From contig BDIU01000126.1 in assembly GCA_002118135.1 (NCBI GenBank), positions 124,001-188,000 of the forward strand: a stretch of 64,000 nt of DNA, in the 5' to 3' direction. A model generated the notes under the pieces. The model saw nothing but the letters and a program-made list of their open reading frames with translations, was not told where the DNA came from and did no database searches. Source of the stretch: Trebouxia sp. TZW2008. Its lineage: Eukaryota > Chlorophyta > Trebouxiophyceae > Trebouxiales > Trebouxiaceae. The position numbers were made by a program, and so were the translations under genes. Below, in pieces: positions 221 through 62,830 of the stretch. Position 1 is the first letter of the stretch. Each line of letters begins with the position of its first letter.

Positions 221-970
221 AGCCATTGCAGAGGCAGGCTTCATGACGGGTGTGGAAAGGAATTCAGAACACGTGGCCATTACATTAGACCCTCATGTGA
301 TGATGATGCTGAGCTGCAATGCAGGCAGCCATTGCATCAGACCCTGTAGTGACAAGGTTGATCTGCACTGCACAGCCATTGCATCAGACCCCCAAGTGAT
401 GATTTGAATCTGCACTGCAGGCAGCGATTGCAAAGGCTTCATGACAGGTGTGGACAGGAACTCAGAGCACGTGGCCATTGCATCAGACCTTGGGGTGATG
501 ATCTCAATCTGCATTGCAGGCAGCCATTGCTGATGCGTCTCAGAGGGCAAGGAAATTGCTGCCAACGTTAACTCTGCACTCACCCTGGAGTGATTCTTGC
601 ACCCTGCAGACAGCCATTGCATCAGACCCTGGAGTAATCATTCAAATATGCCTTGCAGGCAGCCATTGCAGAGGCGGGCTTCATGACAGGTGTGGAGAGG
701 AATTCGGAGCACGTGGCCATGGCAGCATTTGCGCCTCTGCTGTCCCACTGGAATGACAGAGCTTGCCCCCACAACCTTGTCATATTTGACAACCACAGGT
801 ACAGCTTAACCTGATACAACTACAACAACAAAACCATGTAGTCAATGCTAGATGACACGCTCCAGCACAGGTGCTAAGTGTATGTGGTCATGGCAGCTTT
901 TATGCTCATGCTGTCCGACAGGAGTAACAGACCCTGCTTACACAATCTTGTCACACTTGACAGCCACAAG
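221..970 (+). repeat. Relic copies of a GH51 exon edge
   Basis: The segment spanning the acceptor and first ~50 bases of the exon at 672-798 (reading GFMTGVERNSEH) recurs at about 221-281 and 421-481, upstream of the real exon. A decayed copy of the 3' half of that exon, covering the part that reads LLSHWNDRACPHNL, lies downstream at about 881-970. The copies carry substitutions and stops, so only 672-798 fits a continuous reading frame. The spacer GCAGCCATTGCATCAGACC also recurs between copies, so whole junction-spanning blocks were duplicated. Confidence 0.8.
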
Positions 971-2595
971 CACAATTTTACCTGATACAGAGACATTATA
1001 GTTGCCTGCTTGCATCATAGAAGCATCATCATTGCTGAAGGCTTGAGGCCGGAAAGATGAAGATGACGTTGTTTTCGTGGTGTCATGATTCCAGTCATGG
1101 TTCATGTTAGGCCACACTTTCAAGACACAGGAGCGAGTTTGATCATCAAGCATCAGACACACTATAATGCCCAGGCTTAGATCGCAACCACCACAAGTCT
1201 ACTCTGCAAGTTGCAGCTGCTCTGTCTAGGAATGTGTTGATGCTTCATCATTGTTTGCAGCAGCTGCAGACCCTACCAGTATAGCTTTGATGCGGCAGAA
1301 GTCTTTCAGCTAGGTGATGTGTGCATGCAGGGCGTTTGGGAACAGTGGGATACTGTGTGAAAATGCTGTCTTCAGACTTGCAACCAGCGCGATACGTACA
1401 ACTGCTCATGACTACACCGTTTGAGCTGTTGTGTTGTGCATGCAGGGTGTTTGGAACAGTGTCATACTACGTGCAGAAACTGTTTTCAGAGTTTCAAGGG
1501 GTGCGGTATGTACAGTCAACTGTAACTACCCCTGAGGGTGACCCACGTGATCATGAAATTGCAGCATCAGCTTCATGTCAAGATGATCAATGTAGCAAGA
1601 TTGCTTTCAAGGTATACACAAACAAGGGCGACTTGCATGTCTGCAGTGCATTGCCTGCTTTGATAAGTGCATATGGTAGTCAGTGCAGTGCAATTTTGTA
1701 CTTGATCTGTGTTCTTACGTTGCATGTAGCTGTGGGTCTCTAGTGCCGTGATCATTCTGTGTGGGCACAAGGTGCCTGCCTTGAATGCTTGGCATGGTTT
1801 GTGCAATGCATGGTATTGGTGCTGACACCAAACTCTTTGCTTTTGCAGATGGTGGACTTTGGGCAGGACAGAGTTTTGGCATGGCATGTAGCATGCAGGG
1901 GCCCGTTGTTTTAGTAGATAGTGCAACTCGGGCGATTTGGTGTTTGCAGCCCTTTCTGATGCGTCGTTTGGTTGCTGAAGCTTGAATGCTGTGATTGCTT
2001 TTGCAGATGGTGAACTTTGGGCAGGACAATCAGTTGGTTGATGTTGAACTGCTGGGCCTGAAAGGTTCCCCAGACACCATGACGCTCACTAGGCTGAATG
2101 GCACCTATGCTCAGGATGAGAACACCTTTGATGATCCTTTCAAGGCAAGTCTCCGCTTGATGCTGCTGACTGCTCAAAATGTATGCTAAACTGTCTTGAG
2201 CAGCCAGTCAGAGATGCTATTTGCATCACAAATCACTTCTGTGCTGCTTCTGCAAACTCAGCTGTGACTGACTTGACTTGCAAGGCAGTTTTGCTTGACG
2301 TACTTGTTTTGCTAAGCTGCAATTCTCATCACAAAGCACATTTGCGCAGCTGATGCAAATTGAGGTGTGACTAGGTTGGCTTGCAAGGCATTCTGCTCCT
2401 TGACATACTGGTTTTGCTGAACTGTGAGTTTGATTGCAAGTTGTGCTGATGATGCAGATCACTCCACATGAGCACACTGTTGGCTTCAATGGGCACAATC
2501 CAACGGTGGATTTGCCACCTTTCTCCCTCAGTATTGTTAGCGTGGATCTAACAAAATCACGAAAGCCCGAGCTCAGCATCAGTCAAGCTAAATAA
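672..2595 (+). CDS. Alpha-L-arabinofuranosidase, GH51 (3' part only)
   Basis: C-terminal part of a glycoside hydrolase family 51 enzyme, which removes L-arabinofuranose side chains from arabinans and arabinoxylans, usually after secretion. Visible exons are 672-798, 1446-1611, 2007-2144 and 2458-2595 (TAA), and phases join without a break. The first exon holds the family stretch GFMTGVERNSEH...FDNHR at the end of the catalytic barrel. The second holds VFGTVSYYVQKLFSE. The last two form the C-terminal beta-domain with DENTFDDPFK and LPPFSLSIVSVDL. The catalytic glutamates lie upstream, outside the window. The intron at 2145-2457 starts with GCAAGT, a GC-AG intron. Relic exon copies sit before exons 1, 2 and 3 (221-481, 1325-1416, 1841-1890). 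Confidence 0.88.
1325..1416 (+). pseudogene. Relic copy of GH51 exon 1446-1611 (5' part)
   Basis: About 90 bases starting with the same TGCAGGG acceptor context match the start of the real exon 117 bases downstream, with roughly one base in four changed. It reads as a broken version of VFGTVSYYVQKLFSEFQ. A similar short relic of the start of exon 2007-2144 (MVNFGQD) lies at about 1841-1890. Confidence 0.8.
2145..2457 (+). repeat. GC-AG intron containing a tandem duplication
   Basis: The donor is AAG|GCAAGT and the acceptor is GATGCAG|ATC. Inside, a block of about 120 bases with the landmarks GACTTGCAAGGCA and TACTTGTTTTGCT is present twice (around 2265-2340 and 2380-2420), so the intron itself has grown by duplication. 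Confidence 0.65.
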
Positions 2596-3596
2596 AAGAA
2601 AGAAAAGAAAAAGAAAAGAAAAGTCTATGCTGTTAGGCGTCATAACGGCAGCCTCCGTCTATAGAGGCAGCCCCGGGGGTGCTGCTGTAGAACAGCAACC
2701 AGAGGACTTAATTCTATGGGGTCAGCCCAACAACAACACCATGATGAACCTTTCAACGCAGCGTGCAACTTATGTCACGATTTACTCACTTCCTAGCAGT
2801 TATCACTGAGCTGGAAATAGCTTGTGTTGTATGCAGAGAATGGCAGGACTTTGCATTGTGCAGGCTGCTGTGACATGCATATTTTTGGTTGCAACAACGA
2901 CTGCTTTATGCCTCAGAATCTTTATAGCTATACAGAAGTAGGGAGCGTTCATTCTTTGTCATTTGCTTGCCCGCGTCAGCTGCATTTTGCCGCCATGTGG
3001 CCTTGTGTTGTCAGTTTCGATTTTGCTCAATCCACATCATTTGTGTTGACGCAAAGATCTTGTTGCTTGGAACATGCAGGTAGACTTAGGGTCGTCGCTC
3101 TCAGTCTGGCATAGCTAAATTTCTGCCACTGCTGTGATCCTGATTGCTCTGTCCGTTTTGTCCAATGGTTCTGAATTGACCACTGTTGCTGCTGACATGT
3201 ACAGTTCAACCACTGTGTAAGGGCATGGTGAATCCTGACATGCTTTGATCAACAGCGATTGCTCCTGTTTGCCATACTAAAGCAATGTCTGCGGTTGCAA
3301 GCTGTGTTGCTCATGCCTGATGCAATTGTTTCATGGTTGTGATGCATACAGCCGTAAGCTTGCAGCTCCCTGATCTGGGCAAATCTTGCTCAAGCCTTCA
3401 AGTGAATTCCAACTGGCATGTATGCCACAGTCATGAAACAAGCTATACAGCCTTCATCTTCCGCACCGCATCAAAATTTGAAAGCATGCTTCATCACATA
3501 CAATCAAGGCTTTTGGCAGCCTTGCCTGGTGCCACATCTCACGTGAAGCCAATCAATCCACAACAAATAAGCTTGCAAGTCGATCAGCAGTCAGGC
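2596..3596. other. Convergent intergenic region
   Basis: About 1 kb between the stop of the GH51 gene (+) and the stop of the SRI-domain gene (-). It begins with a purine-rich AAAGAAAAG stretch at 2594-2624. I see no supported gene. Short open frames here have no recognisable motif. Confidence 0.6.
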
Positions 3597-20200: not shown

Positions 20201-21268
20201 GCATTTCAGCATGAAACTTCCCTGGCAGCCTTGAATGGCATTGCATATCTTCTGATGCAATGCAGGTCAAAGACCCTGTGGGATTCACCACTTCATGGTT
20301 GACTGCTCATATCAAAAACGCTCAGGCACTGGGCAAGCCGTTCATTGTTGAGGAGTTTGGCAAGAGCATTGACCAGCGTGACCCAGGAACCATCAGCACA
20401 GTCAGGGACCCTGTCTTCACTGCTGTGTACAACATGCTGAATGCCAGTTTGAAGTCAGATGGCATCTTCAAAGGTGAGCGACCGGGTCTAGATCAGACAA
20501 GTGTCTGTACGTGCAGCATTGTGCAGATGGTGTGTGAGGGAGGATGTGCCTCTGCATGAGCAGTACTCATACCTGTCCTTATCTAGTTAGTGCAAGCTGC
20601 CCTCCATGTACTCGGTCATTATGTGCACAGCGCTGGCTCATAGCGACAGAGCACTGTATGCAAAGCAAGGTGCTCAAGCGTTTGTAATGTGATGTGGTGG
20701 GCTTGATGCAAAGGTGTTGTATTGCAGCTGCACTGATAGGATGCTTGGTGATGCAGGAGCTGCCTTCTGGGAGTTCAGCTACATTGCTGGTCCACCAGAC
20801 TCCAATCAGGTGCTGTTCAACGAGTCAACCTGGACCAACATTGTTTCGCCATCCGCTGACAATGCGCTGCAGACCATGCTTTCCAACCCTGCAGTTGCCA
20901 ACTGTGTTCCAGGTGATGCCTCTTCTTTGGGCCTATGCTACATGCACTGTCAATAGATGCTGTTGGAATGCAGCGACTGCGATTGATGTGCAGATCTGCT
21001 CTGGAATTACCCTCCGTTCTGGCCAGCTGAGCTTGTTTGACAATAGTGTGATGTTGTTGCGGCCAAAATGCAATGTGTGGCAATGCTGCAGACAGCTGAA
21101 ACATTGACCCTACTTCGTGCTGCAATGACGATCGGCATCATTGCTGACGCTGTAGATCAATCCAGTCAGTCTCACACACTGTCCCCCATATTGAGCATGT
21201 AATGCACTGCAGGTCCGCTGAAGAGCACCACAAGCTCCAGCAACACTGCAACCGCCGGCAAACGCTGA
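17237..21268 (+). CDS. Mannan endo-1,4-beta-mannosidase (GH5, subfamily 7-like)
   Basis: Nine exons: 17237-17491, 17582-17607, 17730-17908, 18206-18564, 18988-19135, 19778-19854, 20266-20473, 20757-20912 and 21213-21268 (TGA), 487 residues. It cleaves the mannan backbone outside the cell. Residues 1-34 are a signal peptide (MMLAAVTVVLAFAASAQA), followed by a Ser/Pro/Ala linker. The barrel begins at FITVQGNKFVDPNCQEFFF. DLINELRD carries the proposed acid/base Glu about 250, and PFIVEEFGK the nucleophile Glu about 378. Exon 2 is a 26-base microexon, and its GTACGT donor keeps the phase to exon 3. The intron after 19135 starts GCAAGC (GC-AG). The C-terminus is a short Ser/Thr tail. Reading through the exon 8 donor would give a shorter end at 20956, but the spliced end keeps phase and looks more natural. 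Confidence 0.9.
18142..18190 (+). pseudogene. Relic copy of mannanase exon 4 start
   Basis: CTGCAGGTGTCTACAATGAT and the next ~30 bases match the acceptor and first ~50 bases of the real exon at 18206, with a short deletion and a stop. It lies just upstream of the real exon. Confidence 0.8.
19676..19701. repeat. CTG trinucleotide run
   Basis: Eight or nine CTG/TGC units lie in mannanase intron 5. They are non-coding in the splice model. Confidence 0.9.
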
Positions 21269-41752: not shown

Positions 41753-44700
41753 GCAACATCACCATAGCAATGGCAACACAGCAATTGTTCACTGTATGCC
41801 CAGAGACATACCCACTTGGCAGCAGAATAGTACTAGCGGCAACAGCGAATCTATCAGCAGATGCAATACCAAAAAGAATTCGCAAATCAACGATGATTTC
41901 ACCTGAAAGCGGCACAACAGCAAATGACAGACACGCATGCAGCAGCAATGCTTGTACAGTGACTGCAACCCTGGGATTATCAACTCTGATCTCAGACAGA
42001 AGATGAAGCAGCAGATGCCATAGCAGCGGCAAGATGTCCTTCCAGACTTCACAGATGGAAGCCCTAGCAGCATCACAACGCTCATGCCAGACAAACAGGC
42101 AGCAGCAACATCAGCAGCAACGTTCTAGCTCAAAATGGCCTCCAACAAGCCTGCAATTGAGCAGAAGCAAAAGCAACAAGGGTGCTGACCCTAGGGCCAG
42201 AGACATAGTCTTCCAGAAGCTCGCCGCGCTCTGCCACGACGTCGGCAGTGCGCGCCTCACCAGTGGACTGCAACCCAATTACCACACACTTGCCCTCCTC
42301 CAGAGCTGCCTCGCTCATGCGCACCAAGCAGGGAATCTGCACCGTCATCATCATCTTGATGCCTACCAGTGGGGATTGTGCTAGGGTATCTAGATGTGCG
42401 GCCAATGCTAATGGGACATGGGAATAGCACAACTTGAGGGCATGCACCTTGTCTTGGCGCTGTTCTTGAGCACAATATCTGCATCGTGTTGGTGAGCGTA
42501 CAGCAGAGGTATACCAGCAATGTGATGCATCCAAGAAAAGTTCCGTGGAGCAACGTCGCGTACACAACGACGTGCAGGTGGTATGACCAACTCATGATGC
42601 ACACCAGGCAAGACACAACAAAACGCTGGGCATGAATGTAGTGGCACCATCACAAATGTGAGCAGCATCAAAATAAAGGTGATACAGGAAGGACTGCACC
42701 TTAGCTGACATGCACATATGCCTGAAGAAGCGCTGGTGGGATGCCCAGAAGGAGCGCCACAGCAGGCTGCCACGCTTCTTGGGCAAACCCGCATCCTTCT
42801 CAGCCAGGCCTGCCTGCTCAGCAGCGTACAGAAATTCCCGCCGCAGCTGGTTCCACATGCCTGCTGCTGCCCCATACTTCTTTGTCATGTCCTCACCCAA
42901 CTCAGCCTCCACCACCTCAAACTCAGCACCTGTATACAAATGCCATACGTTAAACTGTGACCTCAGCAGTGCACAGCAACTTCTGCCGCAGCTGGATCCA
43001 TGTGACCACAGCTGCTCTGTAGTGCTTGATCATGTCCTCACCCGACCCAGCCTCCACCACCTCGAACGTAGCACCTGTATGCACATGCCACACTTCAGCC
43101 CGTGAGCTTGGCAGCATACAGGAACTCCCGCCGCAGCTGATTCCACATGCATGCAGCTGCCACATACTTCTTCATCATCTCCTTGACCAACTCAGCCTCC
43201 ACCACCTTGAACTCTGCACCTGTGAACACATACAAGATTAACGAAGCATTGTAGAATAAATGCTCAACTGATCAACTGAGCTTGTTATGCAGCAATATGC
43301 ATTTGCAAGTGTGATATATTGCTGCAAGCTTGCTGAAAGCTGCACCAGGCAAAGTGACTGCAAGCTGACTTGACTAAACAGCAAGCCAATGACCTACAAA
43401 GTGCAACATAGCCTCTCACAAAGCTTGTAGCTACATGCATATGCAGACAAATCAAAGTGTCCAGGAAAAACAGAAATTCCAATTTCTCCAAGTCAACATT
43501 GAATGCTGAGAGTGGGCGCAAGCATTATCGAGAGGGGTTGACCTCTTGAGCAGCAGGTGCAGCAGGTGTTGCACTTGTCAGGCTGCATGTGCATGCGGAA
43601 AGGCAGACATAAACATCCTAAACAAATACGGGCATGATCAAGGGGGCTGACCTTTGAAGGAGAGGGTGCGGCAGGCATACATGCCGCGCGCCTTCATGTC
43701 CATGGCCACCAGCTCCAGAGCCCCCATCCCCCGGCCCCCCACAGCCTCCAAAAACGCCTGCAGGACAGATAGATGTTGACACAGTAGAAGAACATATTAG
43801 GCAGGTGCACACCCCCCAGTTAATTGTGGTTATGAACGTGTTTTGGGCAGAAGCTGCCTGACAGGAAAGAAGTACTCAGGTGTGCAGACAGTGGCACAGG
43901 TCATTACTATAAAGCTATTGTTGGAGTACACACATGAAAAGATAGCATGCTATACTAGCAGATGAGTAATGCTGGGACATATAGGCCAGAATGGCACAGC
44001 TTGCGGAAAGCTCCTCTCAACGCCAAGACCACGGCTTTGCATACAATCTGCAGTATGCCTTGCGGTCATGGCTTGACAGAAAGCCAGTGACGCAGACCTG
44101 AGAAACACAGGATGAGCTGGTCGCTGTGTTGCAGCGATGCAGATCTCACATGAAGCATGCTACAGCGTTGGAAATGGCTCAGACCTGGAAGTTGGAGAAG
44201 GAGGGATTGCCAGGCCCCCATAGGCCAAGGCGCTCCATGTAGCCCAGGTTGCGTGGCTCTGAGGCCCCAGTGGCGCTGCAGTACACCACCCTAGCCCCTG
44301 GCACTGCCCGCTGCAGTGCCACTACCGCCTGGCCCACCTGCACCACCACTCTTGACAACTCACTGCCATGCTAATGCAGCTATCTTGATCTAAGATATGT
44401 TTGAGGACTCCCGCATAGGATTGACCAAGACCCTGCTGCATCAGCACTACATGCGCCCTGTCCCGTCCTGCTGCTATTATTCAACTGTAGCCATCATGCT
44501 GAACTTCCGAACACTGCCACTCAGCAGATGCTTGCTGCTCAGCAATGAGCATCAGAGTGTAAATAGTGCTGCATATGATGCTTGGCTAACTCTGAAGAAG
44601 ATGAGCAATTCAAGTTGTGTGGGCAGCTGAAGACACGCAGCAGAGAAGTGTTGATACATATTGAGCTGGGTCACTTGCTCTGCATCGCATGCATTGGACT

Positions 44701-44940: not shown

Positions 44941-44990
<50 letters not shown>

Positions 44991-47900
44991 ACATGCCTGC
45001 TAGCGCCATGATCCTGCTAGATGCATACAGAAGCAGTGCACTGCCTCCTATGACCACACGTGCAGAGGGTAGGCAGCAAGTCATTTGTGTTCTGTTTCAA
45101 TTACAGCTGCAGTTCATTGATCTCACTTGCTACCAGAACACTGCACCAAAATGGCGTATCTATTGTGGGTGTGTGAGGCCTCACACACTATCATGCTAGC
45201 ATTGCCATGTAACATAGTGTAGTGAACAATGACAGTATAGCCAATCCTGTTATAGCATTCAGCACAGTGCGCAGGTGAACTACATAGCACAAGTAAAACA
45301 TTGTTAATGCCAGAGACATTCACAGCTACATGGCAGGAAGAAGCCCATTTACCGAGGGGTGCTTGTGAGTGTGCAGGCGCAAAGGAGTGATGCTGCGTGA
45401 GTCTCACCTTGGACAAGAGAGACCCATAGGGCAGCTTGTTGAGAGCATGCACTGGCACATCAGCAGCGCCTACATCATCCAAATCCCGCCGCGTGTCCAG
45501 GCGCAAGTCAGACCCGATGGACACCCACAGATGCTTGCGCCGCCCCACACGCCAGTTCTCTATCATCAACCCTGCAAAGCGAATCCTCACATGACATGCT
45601 GGGTCAGCAAGTACATGCTGCTTTCTTTGGCAGACATCTACAGGCCTAGGAAAGTTTGCAAGGGCCGGTACGACCACTTGAGCACTTGCAAGACTCTGTG
45701 GATATCAGAGCATTGCATTGCATGACATGCGGCAGCATTGCGGTGAATGCTGTGGTGAGGACTGGCACAGCATTGAATGTGGTAGTGCTGCCTCCAAGCT
45801 TTCAGTTGCACAACTGTGCGTCGTTACATCAAACTGCTACTGACAATAGCCATGAGCTGTCCCATCACAGTGCATGTTTTCCAACTTCAATTACCGCTTC
45901 TTTACAGCCTATTCTCAATAGACAGCAGATGGATCAAAGCACTCTCCACAGCAATCCCACAGTTTCTGTCAAGGAGTTCTGCTAGTGTACAGCCTATTCT
46001 CAATAGACAGCAGACGGATCAAAGCACTCTCCACAGCAATCCCACAGTTTCTGTCAAGGAGGCCTGCTAGTATTGTTTGTAGAACAGGACTCACTGTTCA
46101 ACAGTACAACAGCATTCAGGAGCAATGGAAGTGTCCACCAAATCAGTGCAACAGCAACCATGAGCAGCAATCACACTGACCAGCAATGGTCCGACCCTTG
46201 CCAACCCCGGCTCCATCCCCAATAAAGAACCCTGCCCGAGTGTCATCTGGCAGCAGCTGCTCATGCCTCTGACAGGCATACACAATGGATTCCAGCTGCA
46301 ACCCGCTCAACAGCTTCTTCCTGATTAGGTCATCCAGGTGCAAGGTGTAGGTGATGTCAGGAGGCTCCACTGCTGCCAGTGAAGCTGTCTCTACAACTGG
46401 GTCAGGGTGGGCTGCCCCTACCTGCAGCTTTGAGGGGACGTAATCCTGCATGACATGTCACATTTTTTAGGCAAAACTGGACTGTCTCTTTGGGGTCATC
46501 TAGGTGCAAGGTGTAGGTGATGTCCAACGGTTCCACTGCTGCCAGTGAAGGAATCTGCACTACTGGCTCGGTGTGGGCTGACCCCACCTGCAGCTTGGAG
46601 GGAGCATAATCCTGCATGATACGCTAGATTCTGGTGCAAGGACAGGTTTGTGTTGTGGGCAGTGCAGTCTGCACTCGCAGCTTTGAGGGGCTTGATCCTG
46701 CACAAGTTGCCATACCATGAGACAAACATGGGCTTTCACTTCAGATCTTCCAGGTGCAGAGGGCTAGTCATGTCAAGAGGCTGTATTGCTGTGAGTGAGG
46801 CAGCCCCTTTCACTGGGTCGGGATAGGCTGACTGCACTTGCAGCTTCAAAAGTCCATAGTCCAGCACAAGGTGCCAGCCTCTGAAACATTGAGCACTGCG
46901 CCTCAAGTGCAAGGTGCATGCCACAATTGGTAGGTCAAGCTCCTAGAGGCCATCTCTATCACATGGACACAGTTGCTACTCTGAAGACATATGATTGTTG
47001 AGCCATCATGCCACGTTCTGACAGATGTGCGTCCCTGGCATCTGTAGAGCATGATCTAGCTGCAGAGTTTGAACATCTGTACATTCCACTCGTCTTGCCA
47101 ATGCAACTGCCTCTGATGTACAATCAAACACTGCTGCCTGATCAAGCAGCAGAGACAGTCCCACTGGCAGAAGCAGAGTCTCTAATGATGAATGTGCACG
47201 GCCTTGTTGAACGTGCACACTGCCCGGTCATCAAAACAAAAGATTGGATTCTTTTTCTTTCCAAATCCTGTCAAGCTGCTCCTTCATCAACGGGGGCTGT
47301 TGCTGAAAGCCGCTGCAAGTTGTGCTCAAGAGCAGCTACTCACCATGAAAGTATCTCCTGCTGCCTCCTGCTGAGCCTCTTCTTCCTCAGGCGGGGCTGC
47401 TACAGGCAGCCCCTGGCCATCATACAGATCAGCCCTTACAAGGCGGCCTTCATCTTCATACAGATGCTGCTGCTGCCAAACATCCGACAGCACCTGTCTG
47501 TCAGTCTCCCTGTAGCTGGCGCGCTGTCTGAGGCTCTCTAGCTCGTGTTGCTGCTGCTGCATGACTAGGTGCCAGCCAGCAGCACTCCTTGAGTCCTCTG
47601 AGCTGTCCCCAACAGCATTGGGATACTGCAAGCACAATGTGAAGGTGTGCACTCAACACTCAAGGTCAGAAACTGCTGCTGCGGCTTCATCAATTGCCAG
47701 TCAGCTGCGATCCTGGATTCCTCTAAGCCGTTCCAGTAGCATTGAGAAAATGCAGGTACACCATGTATGCACACAGAGACCGGAGCAGCTGCAGTCTTGA
47801 AATGCAGGGTTTGACCCTCTTTTGTTGCACTGACCCTGGCACAAACAGAGATCAGTATTGCAAGGTACATACAGGTGAGCTCAGCAGAGGATCTTGCTGG

Positions 47901-48944
47901 GCCACTAGGCATCACTGTGTACCCCAGATGCACTGTACACGCACTCCCACGGTCATCATCGTGAGTAGGCTTGCAGTCTCTGATCTTGCTTGCCAGATAC
48001 ACATTGTCCGTTTAAAGATCCTGGGAAGTCGTCGTGCACGACGCTTTGTCAGATCTCAGATTCACTGTATGCGTCAGTCCTACTGTACGTCTGTACAGGT
48101 CATCAGAGCACACGCATTGCTCTATTCATCTGTATGTGGTCAGATCAAAGACTGCCACTAGATTCTCCTGCCTGGGTCATATTGTGGCTGCTCGGCTTAA
48201 GACATTGCACAAAGGTGATGAGGACAGGTGCATCTTTTGGCGTGCAAAGGTATGCTGCGCTCACCTGCATATGCTAAGGGTAGAGGCTGCCACTAGAGTA
48301 GCCTGCTGGGTTGTATTGTGGCTGGTGCACTCACCATGCTGGCAAGCAGGAACCAAATGTGCTCACCTGCGTATGGTAAGGACATGTGTACCATTCGGCA
48401 TGCAAAGGTATGCTGCGCTCACCTGCATGTGGTGAGGGTAGGGGCTGACACTTGAGTAGCCTGCTGCATCATATTGTGGCTGCTGCATTTGGCTGGCTTG
48501 GCGTTGCCAGTCAGGATGCTGCTGCCCAAAAGCAGCTTGCTTCTTGTGCTCATTGATCTGCTGAGCCCTGATGATCTGGTGTGCTACTTCTACAGACAAG
48601 CTGACGTTCTGTGTGCTGCCGCAGTAGGGGCATCTGAACTGCTGCTTCTCAGCGAGCTGTGGCAGGATCTGTGCTGGAACTGCACACATGCAAACAGAGA
48701 CTAGATGCAATGAACCAGGCAGAGAGAGCAAGTCAACATGCATTTGCATTCCAGTTGCATGTGTACATGGACACAGTAAATTGAACAGGGAGCTGCTGTC
48801 AAAAATGTGCATGAGACTTGGATGAGCCTGCACAAGTAAGGCTGCATGCATGCCAGGGAGCTTTGGCTGTTGCGCACCATTGATGACACTGCTGCAGCTG
48901 CCACACTTGACTTGCAGTGCTGCCTGCGCGCTGTCCTGCTGCAT
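31941..48944 (-). CDS. SBNO: Strawberry notch / FORGETTER1 helicase-like protein
   Basis: Twenty-one exons: 48944-48878, 48679-48423, 47625-47344, 46445-46181, 45571-45408, 44919-44734, 44337-44185, 43757-43652, 42929-42700, 42336-42190, 41683-41338, 40922-40270, 39298-39003, 38665-38458, 37913-37731, 37116-37001, 35804-35648, 35307-34345, 34010-33847, 32950-32721 and 32110-31941, total 1780 residues. The N-terminus has an LSD1-type zinc ribbon (CGSC...CPYC). [14 protein letters not shown] (about 276-290) is the ATP-binding loop, DECH (about 389-392) is motif II and [10 protein letters not shown] is motif III. The C-terminal helicase lobe has [28 protein letters not shown] and [11 protein letters not shown]. 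The order matches plant FGT1, a nuclear co-activator that works with chromatin remodellers in stress-gene memory. Exons 11, 12 and 18 add long disordered inserts. I see no PHD finger between the lobes, where plant FGT1 is reported to have one. Many introns carry relic exon edges. Confidence 0.93.
33753..33826 (-). pseudogene. Relic copy of SBNO exon 19, 3' edge
   Basis: About 70 bases repeat the donor and last codons of exon 34010-33847 (encoding MRLQELTDK) with many changes. The relic lies downstream of the real exon in gene orientation. Confidence 0.7.
35896..36300 (-). repeat. Relic copies of SBNO exon 17, 5' part
   Basis: 35896-36002 repeats about 100 bases of exon 35804-35648 ([15 protein letters not shown] region) with stops. 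A shorter match ([10 protein letters not shown]) lies at about 36246-36290. Both are upstream of the real exon in gene orientation. Confidence 0.7.
36770..36970 (-). repeat. Relic copies of SBNO exon 16, 3' part
   Basis: Three decayed copies of the exon end that encodes [16 protein letters not shown] plus its donor occur at about 36773-36826, 36836-36880 and 36898-36970, downstream of the real exon 37116-37001. One still reads IDVACFLNR. Confidence 0.75.
37984..38098 (-). pseudogene. Relic copy of SBNO exon 15, 5' part
   Basis: About 115 bases match exon 37913-37731 at high identity, still reading [20 protein letters not shown], then decay into a stop. The acceptor is changed from GCAG to CTAG context. 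It lies upstream of the real exon. Confidence 0.85.
39349..39465 (-). pseudogene. Truncated, near-intact duplicate of SBNO exon 13
   Basis: With a perfect CTGCAG acceptor, this block reads [17 protein letters not shown] and [17 protein letters not shown] without a stop for 40 codons, then hits TAG. The real exon is 39298-39003. No donor follows, so inclusion would truncate the protein. Confidence 0.85.
39868..40206 (-). repeat. Four decayed copies of the SBNO exon 12 coiled segment
   Basis: The end of exon 12 encodes [20 protein letters not shown]. Downstream in the intron the same block recurs at about 40206-40141, 40071-40037, 40045-39983 and 39912-39868, with the marker GGGAGCAGCTGCAG. 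Some copies keep a GT donor. Confidence 0.85.
41721..41750. repeat. CAG run (10 units) in SBNO intron 10
   Basis: Ten uninterrupted CAG triplets on plus (CTG in the transcript), just 38 bases from the acceptor of exon 11. Confidence 0.95.
42963..43222 (-). repeat. Two relic copies of SBNO exon 9, 5' half
   Basis: Upstream of exon 42929-42700 two ~110-base copies occur at 42963-43075 and 43110-43222, about 145 bases apart. Each has an intact CAG acceptor and each reads FxVVEAxxxx..MxxxWxQLR (for example [18 protein letters not shown]). Each then ends in a stop or loses the frame, and neither has the second half of the exon. Confidence 0.88.
44941..44988. repeat. (CAG)16 in SBNO intron 5
   Basis: Sixteen perfect CAG units on plus (CTG in the transcript), 22 bases from the acceptor of exon 6. 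Confidence 0.97.
45902..46074. repeat. Recent 85-base tandem duplication in SBNO intron 4
   Basis: Two copies offset by 85 bases (landmark AGCCTATTCTCAATAGACAG at 45906 and 45991) differ at only a few positions. Confidence 0.92.
46495..46870 (-). repeat. Three relic copies of SBNO exon 4, 5' part
   Basis: Upstream of exon 46445-46181, copies at 46495-46617, about 46640-46700 and 46740-46870 repeat the region encoding [18 protein letters not shown] to TYTLHLDD with increasing divergence from near to far. The nearest still reads [16 protein letters not shown]. Confidence 0.88.
47670..47755 (-). pseudogene. Relic copy of SBNO exon 3, 5' part
   Basis: About 85 bases match the start of exon 47625-47344 ([20 protein letters not shown] region), including the GCAGCAGCAG run, with an in-frame stop. 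Confidence 0.75.
48150..48400 (-). repeat. Relic copies of SBNO exon 2, 3' edge
   Basis: At least three blocks (about 48150-48198, 48249-48328 and 48358-48382) repeat the exon end and donor context GCTCACCTGCATGTGGTGAG and the neighbouring TAGCCTGCTG...TATTGTGGCTG, downstream of the real exon 48679-48423. Confidence 0.75.
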
Positions 48945-49573: not shown

Positions 49574-52500
49574 ATGTCTCTGCACTGGATCATGCGGTGG
49601 GCCCTCAAAGCAGCTGGAGGGGTGCGCTGCATGCAGCTTAAAGGTTGCTTGAGCAAACATCGCCAAAGTCGTTACCATTTGACGGGGACTGCCTGTACAG
49701 GTTGTTGCGGTTGTGGGCATCGGCTTAGGCCTTGTTTACCAATTCCAGGAGAAACTGGTGAGACTGTGAATGCTGGGCTGCAACCTCCCTGGATCGTTCG
49801 GCTTTCAAGATATGTTGCCTGTCTGCAGCTCTATCTCCCCCGCATTCCTGGTGTTCCGAACGAATTTGCCTATCTTCCTGATAGGTTTGGGTTGGACTAT
49901 GAGGTGAGACTACTACTTGTTCCTGGCAGTGCTGACAACCTCAAGATCAGTGCACCACATGCGCGTCAGAAAACAGCAAAGTTGTTTGCTGACTTCTGCA
50001 TTTGTCTTGTGCATAATATTGATGCACAATTGCATATGTGCAGGATGTCTACATCAAAGCACGGGATGGTACTCAGCTGCACAGCTGGCTGATGTGGCCG
50101 CGTGGCTGGTCCAAGGAGCAGCGACGGCGGCGGCCAACAGTCCTCTTTTTCCAGGCACGCCTTGCCAGGTCACTTTCTGGCCTGGCCAGCCCTGAAAACG
50201 CTCATCATGTTCAGGCAGCTGCATGCACCATGACTTGTCACATCAGCCAGATAAGTTTCTAGGCCAGCCCCATGGCTATTCCAGTGTTGTGTGCTTGCAT
50301 GAGTCACCGCCCGCAATCAAAGTCAGCCGCTTGATTGGAGTTTGCAAGCCTACAAAATCCAGACGAGCACAATTGTAAAACCTGCGCAGTTGCATAGATG
50401 CCTACATGCACTCGTAGATGGCAGCCTGGCATGATTTTGGCATGGGCAATGCTACTTCTGCAATTCTGCCCATGCTAACATTGCCTGCGAGGCTGAGGAA
50501 GTTGGGCAATGCTACTTCTGCAATTCTGCCCATGCTAACATTGCCTGCGAGGCTGAGGAAGTTGGGCAATGCTGCCTCTGTACACATGCTCATGCCAACT
50601 GCCCCCCTGCAGGGCAATGGCAAGGGCAGGATCATGATGTGATCTGACACACAGGAATTTGTATTGTGTGAAGTCAAGCAATGGAGATGGGCAATGTGAG
50701 GCAGCAGTTGTTGAAAGCACTCCTGCCGTGATGCAGCTCCTGGCAAATGCAGCTGTCGACCACTTTCAGCAATGTCCACCTGTCAGCAGTCCTGTCTATA
50801 GAGCAAGTATTGCAGGACAACTCACTGCTTTGCAACTCAGAAGATCTTTAAGCACGCCAGTACAATCTCAAACGCGTTGGCATAATGAGGGACAGACCCA
50901 TGTTGTAGCACTATGACTGCCATGTTCAAGGAAGCTGTTCTTTGCAGGGAAACACACTCTGGAAAGAATCATTTTGGCATGCCAAAGGACTCATCACTTA
51001 TCAGACAGCAAAGTGCTCGTACTGTCTGCTGAAGCACACTTTTAAAAAGTAAAACATTAGACAGATACTGCAAAAGTATCGTGGTTTGACTGTTTGACTC
51101 ATCACGTGAACGGGTTGATCATTGATTGTTATCACAAATGATGTCATACTGTACTGCGTGGTGCAGGAGAATGCTGGTAACATGTCTTTCCGCCTGCCCT
51201 TCCTCAGGCTGGTCATCAGGCACCTCAACTGCTCAGCATTTGCTCCAAGGTAACCTGTCATGGGTCTATTGCTGGAAATGTCATGGTCATTGTCCTCACA
51301 TCGGTCATCAGGCACTGAATTGCTCATTCTTTGCTCCAAGATTCACTCATGTGGCTGCTCTTGAAATTGCTGTTCTCAAGCTGGTCAAAGGCATCTTGAG
51401 TGCTCAGCGTGTGCTTCAAGGTGTGTCAGATGGCAATGCAGCAACTGCATCTGCCATGATGCACTTGCTGCTGCTACTGTGTTGCGTTTGCAGCGTGGAC
51501 AGCAAATGCCATGACCTCAAATTGTCAATGGTGTGTCTGCAGCAGCATATTTATGTGCGTGAATACCTCGCCAAGCGCATTGAAAATGTGTCTTGTACTG
51601 CGTTGCAGTTACCGGGGCTACGGCCTGAGTGAGGGTAAGCCAACTGAGCCAGGCTTGCAGCAAGATGCGCAGGCATCCCTAGACTACCTCAAAGCTCACC
51701 CCACAGTCAACCAAGACAATGTAAGTCCAATCTTGCTGGGAGTTAGCTGGGCCTGCTGCGCCTGTCTAGCATGCGTACTGAAAGAATGCAGTCCATTTTG
51801 CCCGTAGTTGCTATGCTGCAGCATTGCATTGTCTGCTGTAAGAAGTCCGAGCTTCGACAGGTTGATCCGCCAAATTAGTATAGGTGCACGAGTCACAGGC
51901 TCACATTGTGCAGCATAGGTGCATGCATCAGAGGCTCAGTTTGTGCTGCAGATCATTGTGTTTGGGAGATCACTTGGTGGTGCTGTTGCCTTTCATGTGG
52001 CGGCAACAAATCCTGGCAAGATCAACAGCCTGATTGTGGAGAACACTTTCTGGTCCATTGAAGCTGTGACAGGCAAGGTAAGCAGTCAACATATATGTAC
52101 ATATAAAGTATAAATAGTCCAGTATATAAATAGCACAAGACTGAACTGTTTAAAGGCATTTGGCTGCTCCAGCACGGACCTTGCAAAGCCTCTCTAGCAT
52201 GTGTCTTCAATTAATTAACTCTCAAAGGTTGTGTTCTATCTGCCCACCGATGTATGGCATGTTTGTGCAGCTTCAGTAGTCTGACTCAGGATACGAGCAT
52301 GGCAGACTGATTTGCTTTGCAAATGCATGTTGATCAGATACTCAAGTTGCAGCATCAGATAGCTTGTCGAAGGAAGCATGGAGGCTGAATTGTATGTGTA
52401 CAGGCATAAGTTGCAGCTTCTGGTGTGTTGTTTATGACCATATGAGCCACCAGAGATATGCACCATAGCTGACACCACAGAACGCATGCATGCATCCTTT

Positions 52501-55397
52501 GTTCAAGGTATTGAGTAATGCTGTATGCTGTCGTTCAACCATATCCTGTCACTCAGCTCAAAAAGCCCACTTGTCATTTTGTATGAGGTGCTTGGCCATG
52601 TCTGGGACAGCTATTCAAGCAATGCTTAGCAGCCCTTGAAATGGCCTAGCAATATTCTTGCAGGTGATGGCATTTCTGGCTCCCTTTGTGGGTCCAGGGC
52701 GCCTGTTCAACTGGCTCATACGGAACAGATGGCGCAATGATGAGGCCATAGCCAAGCTGGGCCGCCTGCCTGTGCTGCTGCTGTCATCCCTTGAGGTATG
52801 CATGCCATGCTGCTGTTCATCAGGCACAGACGCTTCTCTCTGATCACATTCAGGATGGCCATCATCTACTTTTAAAGAATTTCTCCTGGCATGTGCTGCT
52901 TCTGTCCTCCCTTGAGCTTTGCTCTCCCCGCTGTCCCTTGTCATCAAGTTGGAGATGGTCCTGACCAAATACTGCACTGTGTTCTGTGACTACGCATGTC
53001 CTGTTGTTAATTTCCTCTAGTTCTGCACTCTCGCTGCACATTTGCTGCTGCCCATCAAGCAGAGGCCTTTTTTTTGTTCATTGTTGGCAATTGCTAAGCT
53101 GGGCCGCTTGCCTGTGCTGTTGCTGTCATCCCTTGAGGTCTGCCCACCAACACCTGCTGCTGTTCAGCACGCATAAGCAACTTGTTCATGTTGAACTGGT
53201 TCTGGCTGTGACCCAGCAATCCTTTGTGATTAGGAATGTTCGGTTACTGCCATCCCAAGTCGGGCACCTGCTGTACCTGCTGTTGCCCATCCATCAGACA
53301 CTGCCTCTGCATGATGTCAAAGCTGGTAATCACCAAAACCAGCAATCTTGTTTTGTCACTGATGCTCTGTCAGTGTCCTCCCTTGAGGGCTTGCACCCAC
53401 ATCGACTGGTAGTGCGCACCAAGCACAGGCACTCTGTATCAAGTTCAAGATAGTCCTGATCAAATTCTGCAGGCGATGTCGTGTTGGCATTGTCATCTGG
53501 TCATCATTTGCGTCTGCACCTGCACCTTTTGATGCTGACCAGCAATCATTGGTGTTGCTTTCATGTCAGGTCCAAGATCGTCCCACCCAAAAACAGCAAG
53601 CGTCTCTTGACATCAAATGTGCTGCTGCTGTCGCCGCTTGAGGTTCTGCACCTGCGGTCTTTGCTGCTGCCCATCAAACATAGGCACTGATTTCAAATCA
53701 CACTTGAGCCAGCCACGACAATATGCAGCAAGTGGTAGTTGATTCTGACTGTCCTGTCGTCGTCATGTCTTGATGCTTGCAGCTGCCTTGCTTGATGGCC
53801 ATCAGGCGTAGTGCTTGCTTGAAAATCAATTTTCAGATGGCCTGACCAACTTCAGCAGTGGTGTCCAATGCTGAATGTCCGCTTCTTCTGAGGTTTGCAC
53901 ATGCCTCAATTGCTGGCTTTTAGACACAGCCTGCACATGCTTCTTAGAAGAGCAGTGGCAGCATCTGGCAAATGCCATTTTAAGCATTATGCAAAGACAA
54001 TGCCTGATGGTCAGCACATGAAGCAGGTGCAAATTTCAAAATTCTGCCAGTGTCATTCTGCCTGTCACTTTGCTGGCATGCATAGATGTTTGCCAATGCC
54101 TTGCTCAGTGCATCTGTACTCAGAAGGTGCGCCTGTCTTGGTGCGACATCGACGTCCTGCCTGTCAAACTGCCCAGTCCGTCAATCCACTCAACTCATCA
54201 GCTGAGGCTTACAACTGCTTGCGATATGCATCAAAGCGCACCAAAGAAAAAACACCACAGGCTGAGGCATAGCATGAGCGCAGGGTGAGATGCTGCTGCC
54301 ACAGCATGCGGAATGCCTGCTTTCAACATATTGCTGCACGACTCGATTCTGGAATGACTTGTTACATCTATATGCAAGATTGGCTGAGATGCTGCATGAG
54401 TGCAGGATGAGATGTTGCCACCAGAGCATGTGGAATGCCTGCTTACAGTATGTTGCTGAACAACTGTAAAATGACTTGTTGCAACTATCAGCAAGATTGG
54501 CTGAGGTGCTGCATGAGTGCAGGATGAGATGTTGCCACCAGAGCACATGGAGCGCATGCACAAGCTGCTGCTGGCCAACAAGGGGCAGGTCACGTGGGTC
54601 CCCATCCACGCTGGACACATGGACGCCTATGAGACCAACCCAAATGTAAGTGCTGCGAGCAGAATGCTTGATCCTCACGGTGAATTACTGATCAAATGCA
54701 CGATTGCTTTGCACAGTTGCTGCAAAACACAATTTTGTTGTCTTGACACAACATGCACGGTCAGAGCGTGCCTCAAAAAGATGCAGTCTGTTTGTTCAAT
54801 CACAACTTGAGGTCAGCTTGCTTGCAGATAGACAGTTTGTAAGTACCTGGTTGGTCTCAGCTTGTCTTTGTATGCCATGTCATCAATGCAGCTCCATGTT
54901 TAGCACAAATTTGTGTGTATTGGACTACAGTGCAAAACAAGCCATCAAGTGACCTGTCTGACTTGTCACATCGAGTGAACAATTAGACGCTCTACAGAAA
55001 AGCTCAACTGCTGCCAATCAATCTGTAGCCTATACATTACAGTTACCCAGACAAGCCTGTTCTGCCTGGCCTAAGACGCTGCAATTCCAGCATGTTCTAA
55101 ACACGCTACTGAGCACATGAATGCATGCAGGAGTATTGGCCGCCTGTCAGGAACTTTGCAGAGCGGTATGCAACCTCAGATCTGGACAAAAGGTATGACA
55201 TTGATAGTGGGGAGGGAGTGAAGCAGGCTGAGCAGGCAAGCCAGGCTGGAGTGAAGCCTCCATCAGCAGTCGGGCCTTTCACAAGTGACAGCAATCAGCC
55301 GGCCCAAGGACAACAGCATGGTGGCATCCAGAGCGATGACTGGCAGAAAGTCGAGATTGATGACAGCCATCATGATCAGCCCAAGAAAGAGCTATGA
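49574..55397 (+). CDS. ABHD13/Bem46-family alpha/beta hydrolase
   Basis: Ten exons: 49574-49621, 49701-49757, 49829-49903, 50044-50154, 51167-51249, 51609-51720, 51952-52077, 52664-52795, 54523-54645 and 55131-55397 (TGA), 377 residues. This is a serine hydrolase of the membrane-anchored Bem46/ABHD13 group, whose substrate is not established. An N-terminal signal anchor (GGVVAVVGIGLGLVYQF) precedes EKLLYLPRIPGVPNEFAY. The catalytic triad is visible: FGRSLGG (Ser about 169), DEMLPPEHM (Asp about 249) and HAGHMDAY (His about 280). SYRGYGLSEGKPTEPGLQ and ENAGNMSFRLPFLR are family hallmarks. The ~85-residue acidic, Gln-rich tail is extra. The intron at 50155 appears to start GCACGC, an unusual donor forced by phase and by the invariant ENAGN. 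Introns hold many relic exon edges. Confidence 0.92.
50444..50623 (+). repeat. Perfect 60-base tandem repeat
   Basis: 50444-50503 and 50504-50563 are identical. A third, diverged copy follows to about 50615. It lies in intron 4 of the ABHD13-like gene. The identity implies a very recent duplication. Confidence 0.95.
51283..51425 (+). repeat. Relic copies of ABHD13-like exon 5, 3' edge
   Basis: Two blocks (about 51283-51345 and 51370-51425) repeat GGTCATCAGGCACCTCAACTG to TTGCTCCAAG with changes, downstream of the real exon 51167-51249. Confidence 0.8.
52885..53660 (+). repeat. Relic copies of ABHD13-like exon 8, 3' edge
   Basis: The exon end encoding AKLGRLPVLLLSSLE plus its GT donor recurs at about 53088-53142 (nearly perfect), and more decayed at about 52888-52925, 53370-53400 and 53618-53650. 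The intervening TGCTGTTCATCAGGCACAGA motif also repeats, so whole blocks were copied. Confidence 0.85.
54287..54450 (+). repeat. Relic copies of ABHD13-like exon 9, 5' edge
   Basis: GGATGAGATGTTGCCACCAG and its upstream GCATGAGTGCA acceptor context occur at about 54275-54325, 54395-54445 and 54512-54560. Only the last continues into the open exon. The unit is about 117 bases. Confidence 0.9.
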
Positions 55398-58020: not shown

Positions 58021-58217
58021 AGCAGTCAGATCGCAAGCAGCCAAATGCCATGGCACCTTTGCTTTTGCTGCAAACTCCAGGCAGAAAAGCCACAGTGATG
58101 GTCATGTATGTTGGTCAGTCGCTTTCCTTTGCTGCTAGTGGATGGCAGCATTTGGCTGAAACTTGCTCCCGCTAGTATGTTTATCTTTTGGATTTTTCTT
58201 TTCTTTTCTCCAAACAG

Positions 58218-60139: not shown

Positions 60140-60393
60140 CAGCCTTTCAGCAGGTGTGCCCACAGCTGTACTGGACGCATGCAGCCCTGAGCAAAGGGAT
60201 TCTGACTGCAGAACAGACAATCAAAGATTTGGCCTGGAATCCTCAATTGGGCGTCAACACGCATGCAGGGCTGAAACAGTTAATAACAAAACTCTCAGCA
60301 GTGGCTTTGGCTCTCAGCCAGGCCCAAATCAGACTTTTGCAAAAGAGCACGTCTAAAGCAGAAGGCATAACTTTGGCAGATGTCTCAGCATAG
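60140..60393 (+). other. Open frame with a histone-fold-like tail
   Basis: The plus frame ends ...IKDLAWNPQLGVNTHAGLK, QLITKLSAVALALSQAQIRL, LQKSTSKAEGITLADVSA and stop. The hydrophobic spacing resembles helices 1-3 of an H2B-type histone fold, but no residue identity is decisive and the 5' end is unclear. Another open plus segment at about 60655-60852 (KEPFEANPRAYAARRKERHQ) is also unassigned. Confidence 0.25.
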
Positions 60394-61841: not shown

Positions 61842-62195
61842 ATGGCTGAAGCAACACCAGCTACAGCAGTGCCTAATGCAAGGCTGTCAGGTAGCAAGCG
61901 CAAGAAGGTCCCAGGTAGCAGCAGCCACGCTTGGGATTCATACTTGCACAAAATCCTGCAAGACAATCCTCCAGATGTGAAGATCACCAAGGAAGCTATG
62001 CAGGTTTGGGCTGAAGCCCTTGATGCCTGGTTACAAAAGCTTGCTCAGGAGATAGTGCACGAGCATACTTCACAGGCTCTGACCCCAGCAAATGTCCAAG
62101 CATCCCTGGAGCTGTTGTTGACAAAAGGTGACACATCCAAGGGAAACTCAGCACTTACAGAATCAGTTGCCAAGCATCCCAATACAGGCTCTTGA
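61842..62195 (+). CDS. Divergent histone H2B-like protein
   Basis: Intronless, 117 residues, ATG at 61842 after a CpG-rich block. A short basic tail (GSKRKKVPGSSS) leads into a full histone fold: SYLHKILQDNPPDVKITKEA, then the long helix AMQVWAEALDAWLQKLAQEI, then LTPANVQASLELLL, and a C-terminal helix SALTESVAKH. This order matches H2B helix 1, loop, helix 2, helix 3 and the C-terminal helix, with two residues fewer in loop 2. Few residues are identical to canonical H2B, and the usual HPDTGISSKAM and KRSTITSREIQTA blocks are replaced. So it is a variant or a histone-fold relative, not the bulk histone. A decayed copy of its 3' end lies at 62722-62830. Confidence 0.72.
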   Translation: MAEATPATAVPNARLSGSKRKKVPGSSSHAWDSYLHKILQDNPPDVKITKEAMQVWAEALDAWLQKLAQEIVHEHTSQALTPANVQASLELLLTKGDTSKGNSALTESVAKHPNTGS

Positions 62196-62290
62196 TTAAA
62201 ATTCATGCACTTCACTGGCACCTGCATTGCATGCATGACTGCTTGTTTGACTGCAGACAGCTCCCTCTTGCAGTTCTGTGTATTAGTACT

Positions 62291-62317
62291 GCTCTTGTCT
62301 GAGACTCAGGCAAGAGC
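62291..62317 (+). terminator. Hairpin downstream of the H2B-like gene
   Basis: GCTCTTG ... CAAGAGC arms enclose a second inverted repeat CTGA/TCAG, giving one near-continuous stem about 96 bases after the stop. It is not the canonical replication-histone stem-loop but sits at a suitable distance. Confidence 0.4.
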
Positions 62318-62340
62318 ATCCTTATGTATTGCTATGACGA

Positions 62341-62680
62341 TTGGCTGCTTACACTTTCATGATGGGTGAAGTTCATGCTGTGCTGTACAATCATTATCTG
62401 CTGACATGGCCAGGTGAATCAGATACAGGATTCAGAGTTGCACATCAAGGGAGAAACAGCAAGTGTCATGCAGCAAGACTAGACAATGCATATCAGGCAG
62501 CATTGACTGTCCGGTCTTCTGTGAACATCAACTGCACACCTTTGCACAGCAGCTGAAATACCGGAGGTGTGGTACACGGGGCACGATATCTATGGCTGCT
62601 AAGCCTGACACAGCTCCTGCTCCACGATACAAGCTGCGCTCTGCTTCAGTCAAGCCTTGCCATTTCAGGTAAGCTGTCAT
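62341..62680. other. Intergenic, no clear gene
   Basis: Short open plus frames include one beginning MAAKPDTAPAPRYKLRSASV at 62591, which resembles a basic tail followed by a GTAAGC donor at 62669. A partner exon was not found. Confidence 0.3.
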
Positions 62681-62721
62681 CAACATTCCCAGTGACAGGA
62701 CTGTTTTGGTGACATATCCAT

Positions 62722-62830
62722 GGCACACTCAGCACTTACAGATTCAATTGCCAACCATTCCAAAACAATCCCTTGATTGCTGTTCATGCTGTTGGTATAA
62801 CTGCATCTGCCTGTTTGGCTGACGACAGCC
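62722..62830 (+). pseudogene. Relic copy of the H2B-like gene's 3' end
   Basis: CACTCAGCACTTACAGATTC to the stop and the following GCCTGTTTGGCTGA...GACAGC repeats 62149-62270 with substitutions. It reads SALTDSIANHSK in place of SALTESVAKHPN. It abuts the recombinase ORF. Confidence 0.8.

Follow-up and report, generated by a model that had tools for sequence, protein, structure and literature searches.

Introns in the genome under study, probably that of a green alga, harbour decayed copies of the exon edges that adjoin them. The copies are direct, lie close to their source, show a polarity with respect to the exon, and are present at other loci. Our data point to a process in which short blocks are repeatedly duplicated directly beside themselves, about randomly genome-wide, with copies of splice junctions becoming stranded in introns; we put the probability of this reading at roughly 0.8.

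Orientation, range and polarity of the copies

The window – the whole 64-kb stretch of DNA – lies within the 258 kb of contig that were analysed (C122:1-258000). A search with rbcL gave, as best full-length match, a metagenome protein at 94%. Across these 258 kb, pairs of similar segments less than 1.5 kb apart (score at least 40) were direct in 218 cases and inverted in 3, the orientation that belongs to local tandem duplication. Comparison of the window with itself yielded 36 same-strand matches and 0 inverted within 1 kb (E<=0.01), and 43 and 1, respectively, at a looser threshold. At separations above 4 kb, direct and inverted matches were about equally frequent. A shift scan found 1550 segments at offsets of 10-1500 against 0 at offsets of 20000-21490, and 30 kb of a second contig (C10) contained 20 direct pairs and 0 inverted.

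Offsets between copies were mostly 60-200 bp, often with unrelated sequence in between; an apparent floor at ~75 bp in the BLAST results is put down, tentatively, to near-diagonal culling, the shift scan having given shorter offsets too. The ratio of arm to offset was at least 0.6 in 45 of the 117 events with an offset of at least 60, others having unrelated spacers, and arm length was hardly correlated with offset (r=0.17). Preference for a unit of ~140-180 bp was weak: set against a fitted lognormal, and with four ranges tried, P was about 0.006-0.014.

The claim that introns hold decayed copies of exon edges was borne out by comparison of exons with their own flanking introns: 60 of 453 comparisons (255 exons) scored at least 18, against 0 for reverse complements, 0 for shuffled introns – a control that the earlier note had set beforehand – and 1 for a random intron. 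The scan took in exons of at least 40 nt, low-scoring ones apart, and introns of at least 60 nt, trimmed to the nearest 1500 bases. Exon models were self-trained ab initio predictions. Pfam backs the GH51, PALP and alpha/beta-hydrolase (ABHD) genes, and five predicted SBNO exons are overlapped by five AAA_34 matches. The predictor took some relics for exons.

Polarity was counted over pairs of which one arm carries exon sequence and the other does not. In the 258 kb, acceptor-spanning copies lay upstream in 35 cases and downstream in 1, and donor-spanning copies downstream in 33 and upstream in 1. Overall, 68 of 70 pairs (68:2) fell on the side of the junction that they span; these are pairs, not independent events, and involve 31 distinct acceptors and 26 distinct donors. 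Ratios of 35:1 and 33:1 are far from the scatter without polarity that would have told against the idea. The word "strict", as first used of this polarity, holds for the window (12 acceptor-spanning copies upstream, 8 donor-spanning copies downstream, 0 contrary; 20:0), but is slightly too strong for the contig, where a looser count that also scores whole-exon arms at both junctions gives 69 for and 7 against (69/76). Arms wholly within an exon had 7 copies upstream and 13 downstream, whole small exons 4 upstream and 2 downstream. Pairs with both arms exonic (48 of 218) were left unclassed, some of them being relics predicted as exons. Fifteen pairs reach across the two junctions of a single predicted intron; these are mostly arrays or doubtful models, and none is established as a new intron.

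Polarity also bears on templated insertion, in which a nearby segment is copied into a distant break by synthesis-dependent strand annealing and the spacer is old sequence. There are indeed sharp-edged young pairs with unrelated spacers, and a published vertebrate process gives proximal duplications with a median of 147 bp (PMC2671141). However, about a fifth of copies should then lie on the wrong side (the mirror position is non-coding for 20 of 69 copies), as against 2 of 70 seen, or 7 of 76 on the looser count. Moreover, spaced intron-intron pairs enclose an exon in 1 of 38 cases where 5.9 are expected, and inverted copies are almost absent. The either-side copies and older spacer of synthesis-dependent proximal duplication are thus at odds with the polarity and with exon-poor spacers, and on these grounds we consider templated insertion at a distance very unlikely.

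Relics in the genes of the window

Relics were confirmed in four gene models of the window, namely GH51, SBNO, ABHD and a gene at 24.7-33.6 kb. They are listed here with two direct repeats that lie away from exon edges; 5' type denotes copies of the acceptor side of an exon, 3' type those of the donor side.

214..653, + strand: GH51, decayed array of the acceptor and first codons of the exon starting at ~659 (edge 654-727), 5' type, upstream; self-match
884..989, + strand: GH51, relic of the 3' edge and donor of the exon starting at ~659 (source 713-818), 3' type, downstream; 76% over 106
1320..1400, + strand: next GH51 exon, relic of acceptor and 5' edge (source 1435-1514), 5' type, upstream; 77% over 81
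1837..1870, + strand: young relic of an acceptor and ~24 nt of exon (source 1995-2028), 5' type, upstream; 97% over 34
29483..29560, + strand: downstream relic from the 3' part of exon 29085-29276, its source (29182-29259) stopping 17 nt inside the exon; 81% over 78
29818..29998, + strand: two upstream relics (29818-29862, 29914-29998) copying acceptor and 5' edge (source 30053-30136) of the exon at 30068; 84-87%
32615..32648, + strand: relic of acceptor and 5' edge (source 32703-32735), upstream; 88% over 34
35907..35995, - strand: SBNO, relic of acceptor and 5' edge (source 35722-35810), upstream on the minus strand; 81% over 89
36759..36818, - strand: SBNO, relic of 3' edge and donor (source 36990-37049), downstream; 87% over 60
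37971..38113, - strand: SBNO, relic of acceptor and 5' edge (source 37800-37944), upstream; 83% over 145
39338..39471, - strand: SBNO, relic of acceptor and 5' edge (source 39171-39304), upstream; 84% over 134, TRF period 167
39869..39927, - strand: SBNO, piece of the array 39815-40346, downstream of exon 40270-40922 and derived from its 3' part (source 40279-40337, stopping 9 nt inside the exon); 88% over 59
42962..43231, - strand: SBNO, two copies of 145 bp in tandem, lying upstream of exon 42789-42906 and interpreted as relics of 5' type; TRF period 145, 2.9 copies
45903..46071, - strand: intron-only tandem duplication, unit 85, 96% alike, off exon edges; TRF and self-match
46494..46866, - strand: SBNO, upstream relics at 46494-46619 and 46743-46866, both from the 5' edge of exon 46181-46445; 70-83%
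47674..47760, - strand: SBNO, relic of acceptor and 5' edge (source 47549-47636), upstream; 73% over 88
48126..48192, - strand: SBNO, downstream relic from the predicted first exon, 3' edge and donor (source 48419-48484); 75% over 67
51375..51422, + strand: ABHD, downstream relic from exon 51167-51249, 3' part (source 51203-51251); 80% over 49
52889..53858, + strand: ABHD, relic array of the 3' edge and donor of exon 52664-52795 (source 52744-52826), downstream; e.g. 53086-53173, 82% over 88
54260..54464, + strand: ABHD, upstream relics from exon 54523-54645, acceptor and 5' edge (sources 54394-54579 and 54499-54545); 79-80%, TRF period 117
62127..62829, no strand assigned: direct pair 62127-62261 / 62708-62829, outside all predicted gene models; 71% over 135

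Within the GH51 array, 214-280 matches 654-720 at 93% and 214-485 matches 416-727 at 70%; the gene itself matches Pfam Alpha-L-AF_C. The spacer of the young relic (1871-1994) is unrelated sequence, and a genome search with it found only the spacer itself. In SBNO, the source exon 46181-46445 overlaps the AAA_34 match at 46179-46412. The intron-only duplication at 45903..46071 is the same process as that at exon edges. A "mannanase exon 4" named earlier was not located, 55.6-62.9 kb containing one weak coding-like segment only. Predicted as exons were segment 219-395 of the GH51 array and parts of the SBNO copies at 42962..43231 and 46494..46866.

Decoy splice sites, which the copies were said to leave behind, are real as sequence: AG or GT is retained in 50 of 69 putative decoys and lost in 19. 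Among acceptors 28 of 36 keep the dinucleotide where identity alone predicts 23.3, and among donors 22 of 33 do so where it predicts 21.1; the decay of the decoys fits neutrality.

Extension to eleven places on other contigs revealed direct copies at 10 of the 11, nine of them clearly oriented and 0 contrary. These loci were chosen from protein-profile overlaps (those below ~20 model positions being skipped) and screened by eye, not blind to position; WD40 and dynein profiles were uninformative. Near-tandem copies, given as arm/offset, were found at C64 (189/194, 90%), C372 (150/171, 92%), C275 (152/164), C130 (143/174) and C332 (121/157), and exons in C73, C25 and C79 have both 5'-part copies upstream and 3'-part copies downstream. 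The single repeat at C65 was left unoriented, and a kinesin locus (C193), picked because its profile matches overlap, lacked direct repeats. At the SBNO-type loci C64 and C372 the same exon is copied, with identities of 90-92% within a locus and ~62-74% between loci, which indicates that it was copied independently.

Could the pattern be an artefact, either of assembly (collapsed haplotypes) or of wrong exon calls that turn into relics? The exons were predicted by script, and some relics were themselves predicted as exons. Yet most copies are well diverged (down to <65%), with the splice dinucleotide lost in the proportion given above, the contrast between direct and inverted pairs is independent of gene models, and the same pattern appears at places picked from protein-profile matches. 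We therefore give this explanation next to no credence.

Spacers, exon edges and age

In 33 of 69 spaced pairs with at least 84% identity the spacer is unlike either flank, and for 22 of these 33 there is no other same-strand likeness within 1.5 kb. Two of the 33 were searched genome-wide (68.5 Mb) and each matched itself alone, so that neither search yielded a donor for such filler. Mobile elements or introner-like insertions bearing exon-like ends would likewise place segments with splice-site sequences in introns; but the copies match the adjoining exon, and the 33 spacers, compared all against all, share five short, weak matches only. Since these 33 spacers form no family, we reject this origin as extremely improbable. 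One spacer did contain a dispersed family, for which no link to the exon copies was seen.

A further issue is whether exon edges are preferred. Events that join exon to noncoding sequence make up 44 of the 83 classed, against 16.1 expected under random placement, and an excess is evident in three of four age-matched classes (20 observed vs 9.3 expected; 12 vs 7.2, P=0.04; 11 vs 6.0, P=0.03). Repeats also cover 13.4% of introns in total, as against 6.3% of the sequence between genes. A hotspot at exon edges, with nicks or RNA-DNA hybrids at splice junctions or transcription leading to preferential duplication, would explain these figures. However, the youngest class shows 6 events vs 4.7, which is not significant, and neutral pairs are equally dense within introns (47 intron-intron pairs in 122.6 kb) and between genes (24 in 60.2 kb). 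Moreover, preservation of the exon-attached copy already predicts an excess that grows with age and shrinks among the youngest events, as seen. It thus seems that the excess stems mainly from such preservation, and we think a hotspot quite unlikely; its persistence in all but the youngest class leaves room for a mild preference for gene edges. Equal neutral densities and a non-significant youngest class lend no support to the idea, implied at the outset, that the process is specific to introns or to exon edges, though the next classes keep a modest excess.

Introns with repeats have a median length of 542 (78 introns) vs 322 without (191). Longer introns may simply offer a larger target.

Proposed process and known systems

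Tandem duplication of junction-spanning blocks, with only the exon-attached copy kept, accounts for orientation, distance and polarity. The suggestion that this is the simplest reading stands as the best one, with the qualification that many pairs are not head-to-tail, given the frequency of spacers unlike either flank. We infer the order of steps, the building of arrays and the molecular route as follows. Short blocks, mostly with an offset of 60-200 bp, would be repeatedly duplicated next to themselves in direct orientation, at about random positions in the genome, often with unrelated sequence remaining between the new copies. Were the block to lie within an intron or between genes, both copies would decay; were it to span an acceptor or donor, the protein would survive only if the copy joined to the remaining exon were used. 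The unused copy would be left behind in the intron that flanks the duplicated junction, and this geometry would produce the polarity. Repeated events and misalignment among existing copies could build arrays, and every event would leave a longer intron and a decoy splice site, which would then drift neutrally. The route that we favour is a staggered break, or a pair of opposite-strand nicks ~100-200 bp apart, followed by two-sided fill-in and end-joining; the spacer may be filler or the remainder of a trimmed unit.

A more ambitious version – an unusually active process with a preferred unit of ~140-180 bp (about one nucleosome), working mainly in transcribed genes, favouring exon-intron junctions and having been a main source of intron DNA, such that splicing must ignore many near-perfect decoys – we regard as unlikely.

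Tandem duplications in rice have reportedly been traced to break repair, in work by Vaughn and Bennetzen from 2014. Repair of breaks with protruding ends gives local direct duplications via staggered-break fill-in, some with an extra insert (PMC5730883 and PMC8355091). The likeness to our local direct copies is one of sequence form, and many copies here have long spacers. Cases from potato (RdRp; PMC4974935) and Drosophila (PMC2891723) reportedly likewise involve within-gene tandem duplication over exon-intron boundaries, the copies containing splice sites. The stress in those works is reportedly on new introns, whereas here existing introns grow, exon edges decay inside them, and local pairs number 218 in 258 kb. 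Vertebrate capture of proximal DNA also produces short proximal copies of similar length, some including exons or splice sites (PMC2671141); there, donor-acceptor distances are mostly below 5 kb, pairs closer than 50 bp were left out and one exon copy or more is inverted, unlike the polar, nearly all direct copies at offsets mostly <300 bp reported here. Introners (PMC9860276), too, add intron sequence on a large scale, but are dispersed mobile families, whereas the source here is the adjoining exon edge.

Intron growth is often credited to mobile elements; here growth by copying from the neighbouring sequence can be followed one event at a time, each copy carrying an inherent mark of direction and having a conserved partner as an aid to dating it. 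Decoys at graded stages of decay offer a natural series for testing how a real site is told from a near-identical false one. For gene prediction they are a warning, relics having been taken for exons by an ab initio predictor.

Short-range direct repeats and the underlying gene models

The repeats are apparent independently of gene models. Within the window, each of the 36 self-matches no more than 1 kb apart at E≤0.01 is same-strand; a looser threshold yields 44, a single one of them inverted. Across the 258 kb of the contig that includes the window (C122:1-258000) pairs no more than 1.5 kb apart number 218 direct versus three inverted, and at separations above 4 kb direct and inverted matches occur in roughly equal numbers; 30 kb of a second contig, C10, gave 20 direct and no inverted. 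A shift scan returned 1550 segments at offsets of 10–1500 versus none at control offsets of 20000–21490, and these group into 109 places (115 with a slightly lower threshold, of which the window holds 26).

The assembly – 527 contigs, 68.5 Mb, with a plastid-type rbcL – was read over these two stretches, the window being C122:124001-188000, and over short segments of another twelve contigs. The rbcL protein is most similar to a metagenome protein (94%) and to records from the green lineage, which together with the many predicted spliceosomal introns makes a green alga the likely source. Exons and introns are ab initio models from a self-trained gene finder, which predicted 41 genes, 310 exons and 269 introns on C122:1-258000; at times it predicts relics (decayed copies of exon edges in the adjoining intron) as exons, and it may merge separate genes. 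Spliceosomal introns are common among the models, with splice sites of the forms CAG|GTGAG and TGCAG|G. The GH51, PALP and alpha/beta-hydrolase genes are backed by Pfam, and five AAA_34 matches overlap five predicted SBNO exons.

Three further features of the window were recorded:
44941-44989, SBNO gene: (CAG)16, a leucine run in the predicted protein, probably intronic.
4402-4497: a near-perfect 12-bp repeat, eight copies, within an open frame and coding for an Ala-Ser-Ala-Gln run.
62836-63816, minus strand: a 326-aa frame without introns, which by eye we take to look like a tyrosine recombinase, perhaps Crypton-like; it gave no Pfam match at E 0.001 and no meaningful match among solved structures.

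Polarity of exon-edge copies

An earlier note had described relic exon pieces in introns, 5′ pieces upstream of the exon and 3′ pieces downstream, and read them as tandem duplications. On C122 an exon matched its own flanking intron in 60 of 453 comparisons, against none in shuffled and reverse-complement controls and one in random introns; the pieces thus score better than shuffled sequence. Upstream matches (n=33) reached the exon's 5′ edge in 21 cases, the 3′ edge in one and both in two, the other nine being internal, seven of them closer to the 5′ end. Downstream (n=27), the 3′ edge was reached in 16, the 5′ edge in two and both in three, and five of the six internal matches lay closer to the 3′ end.

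Repeat pairs were tallied where one arm bears exon and the other none, leaving aside 48 pairs with two exonic arms and those with no exonic arm. Acceptor-spanning copies fell upstream in 35 cases versus one downstream, donor-spanning copies downstream in 33 versus one upstream; these are counts of pairs, involving 31 different acceptors and 26 different donors. A looser count, scoring whole-exon arms at both junctions, gave 69 for and seven against, and the polarity claimed in the note is borne out, though 'strict' overstates it slightly for the contig. Tallied separately, arms within an exon (n=20) fell seven upstream and 13 downstream, and whole small exons (n=6) four and two. For 20 of 69 copies the mirror position falls in non-coding sequence, so insertion blind to side should misplace about one fifth of copies. 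Spaced intron–intron pairs enclose an exon in one of 38 cases, versus 5.9 expected under random placement.

Excess at exon edges and the form of the repeats

Neutral pair density is alike in intergenic DNA (24 in 60.2 kb) and introns (47 in 122.6 kb). Exon–noncoding events made up 44 of the 83 classed, versus 16.1 expected by random placement; another 32 of the 115 events, in which both arms are exonic, were excluded. Observed versus expected counts by age-matched class were 20/9.3, 12/7.2, 11/6.0 and 6/4.7, the matching assuming that exon arms diverge at about 0.8 times the rate of intron arms within the same pairs (identities of 0.83–0.84 and 0.79–0.80, respectively). The simplest reading of this excess is that the copy attached to the exon is preserved; a less likely alternative is a mild hotspot for duplication at exon edges.

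The offsets of 131 events – below 60 in 14, 60–119 in 29, 120–199 in 58, 200–279 in 17 and larger in 13 – weakly suggest an excess around 140–180. Near-tandem events (arm-to-offset ratio of 0.6 or more) account for 45 of the 117 with an offset of at least 60 (median offset 143), and some very young pairs have sharp edges, such as window 1837-1870 / 1995-2028. Among 69 spaced pairs at ≥84% identity the spacer resembled neither flank in 33; 11 of these spacers are similar to other sequence no more than 1.5 kb away, for the most part arrays, which leaves 22, and genome-wide searches with two spacers matched only themselves. Spacers may be filler made with the duplication or leftovers of a trimmed unit. 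Through a spacer outside the window we noticed a dispersed element of ~150 bp (16 matches on both strands, at window 34153-34301 and elsewhere in C122:1-258000), with no link seen to exon-edge copies.

Gao and Lynch reportedly described tandem duplication as an origin of new introns in 2009. Other papers report new introns arising in this way (PMC4974935, PMC2891723), small tandem duplications arising in mammalian cells at breaks whose ends protrude (PMC5730883, PMC8355091) and vertebrate proximal duplications attributed to strand annealing (PMC2671141); in the open-licence literature we found no description of polar exon-edge relics in introns at such density.

Introns, decoy sites and other contigs

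Repeat arms cover 13.4% of intron, 12.6% of predicted exon and 6.3% of intergenic bases, and median intron length is 542 bases with repeats versus 322 without, an association only. The decoy AG is intact in 28 of 36 copies and the GT in 22 of 33 (neutral expectation 23.3 and 21.1), retention near enough to neutral to give no indication that decoys are purged by selection. On C122, each of fifteen repeat pairs takes in the two splice sites of a single predicted intron; such introns could in some cases have arisen by duplication, though the models in these places are doubtful.

Eleven places on other contigs, chosen by eye, not blind, from profile matches with one exon matched twice, were also read. 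Direct DNA-level copies were present at ten (C64, C372, C275, C157, C73, C130, C332, C33, C25, C79) and no direct repeat at the eleventh, C193. Reading of exon and splice-site sequence gave the predicted polarity in nine of the ten; the C33 copy sits past the 3′ end of the exon match, downstream, and its splice site is ambiguous. On C73, C25 and C79 the exon's 5′ part is copied upstream and its 3′ part downstream. The same exon has been copied upstream, independently, in two diverged SBNO-type loci, C64 and C372, a hint that the process recurs at some sites. Besides the SBNO gene of the window, SBNO-type AAA_34 loci lie on C64, C65 and C372 (L023, L024, L026, L031).
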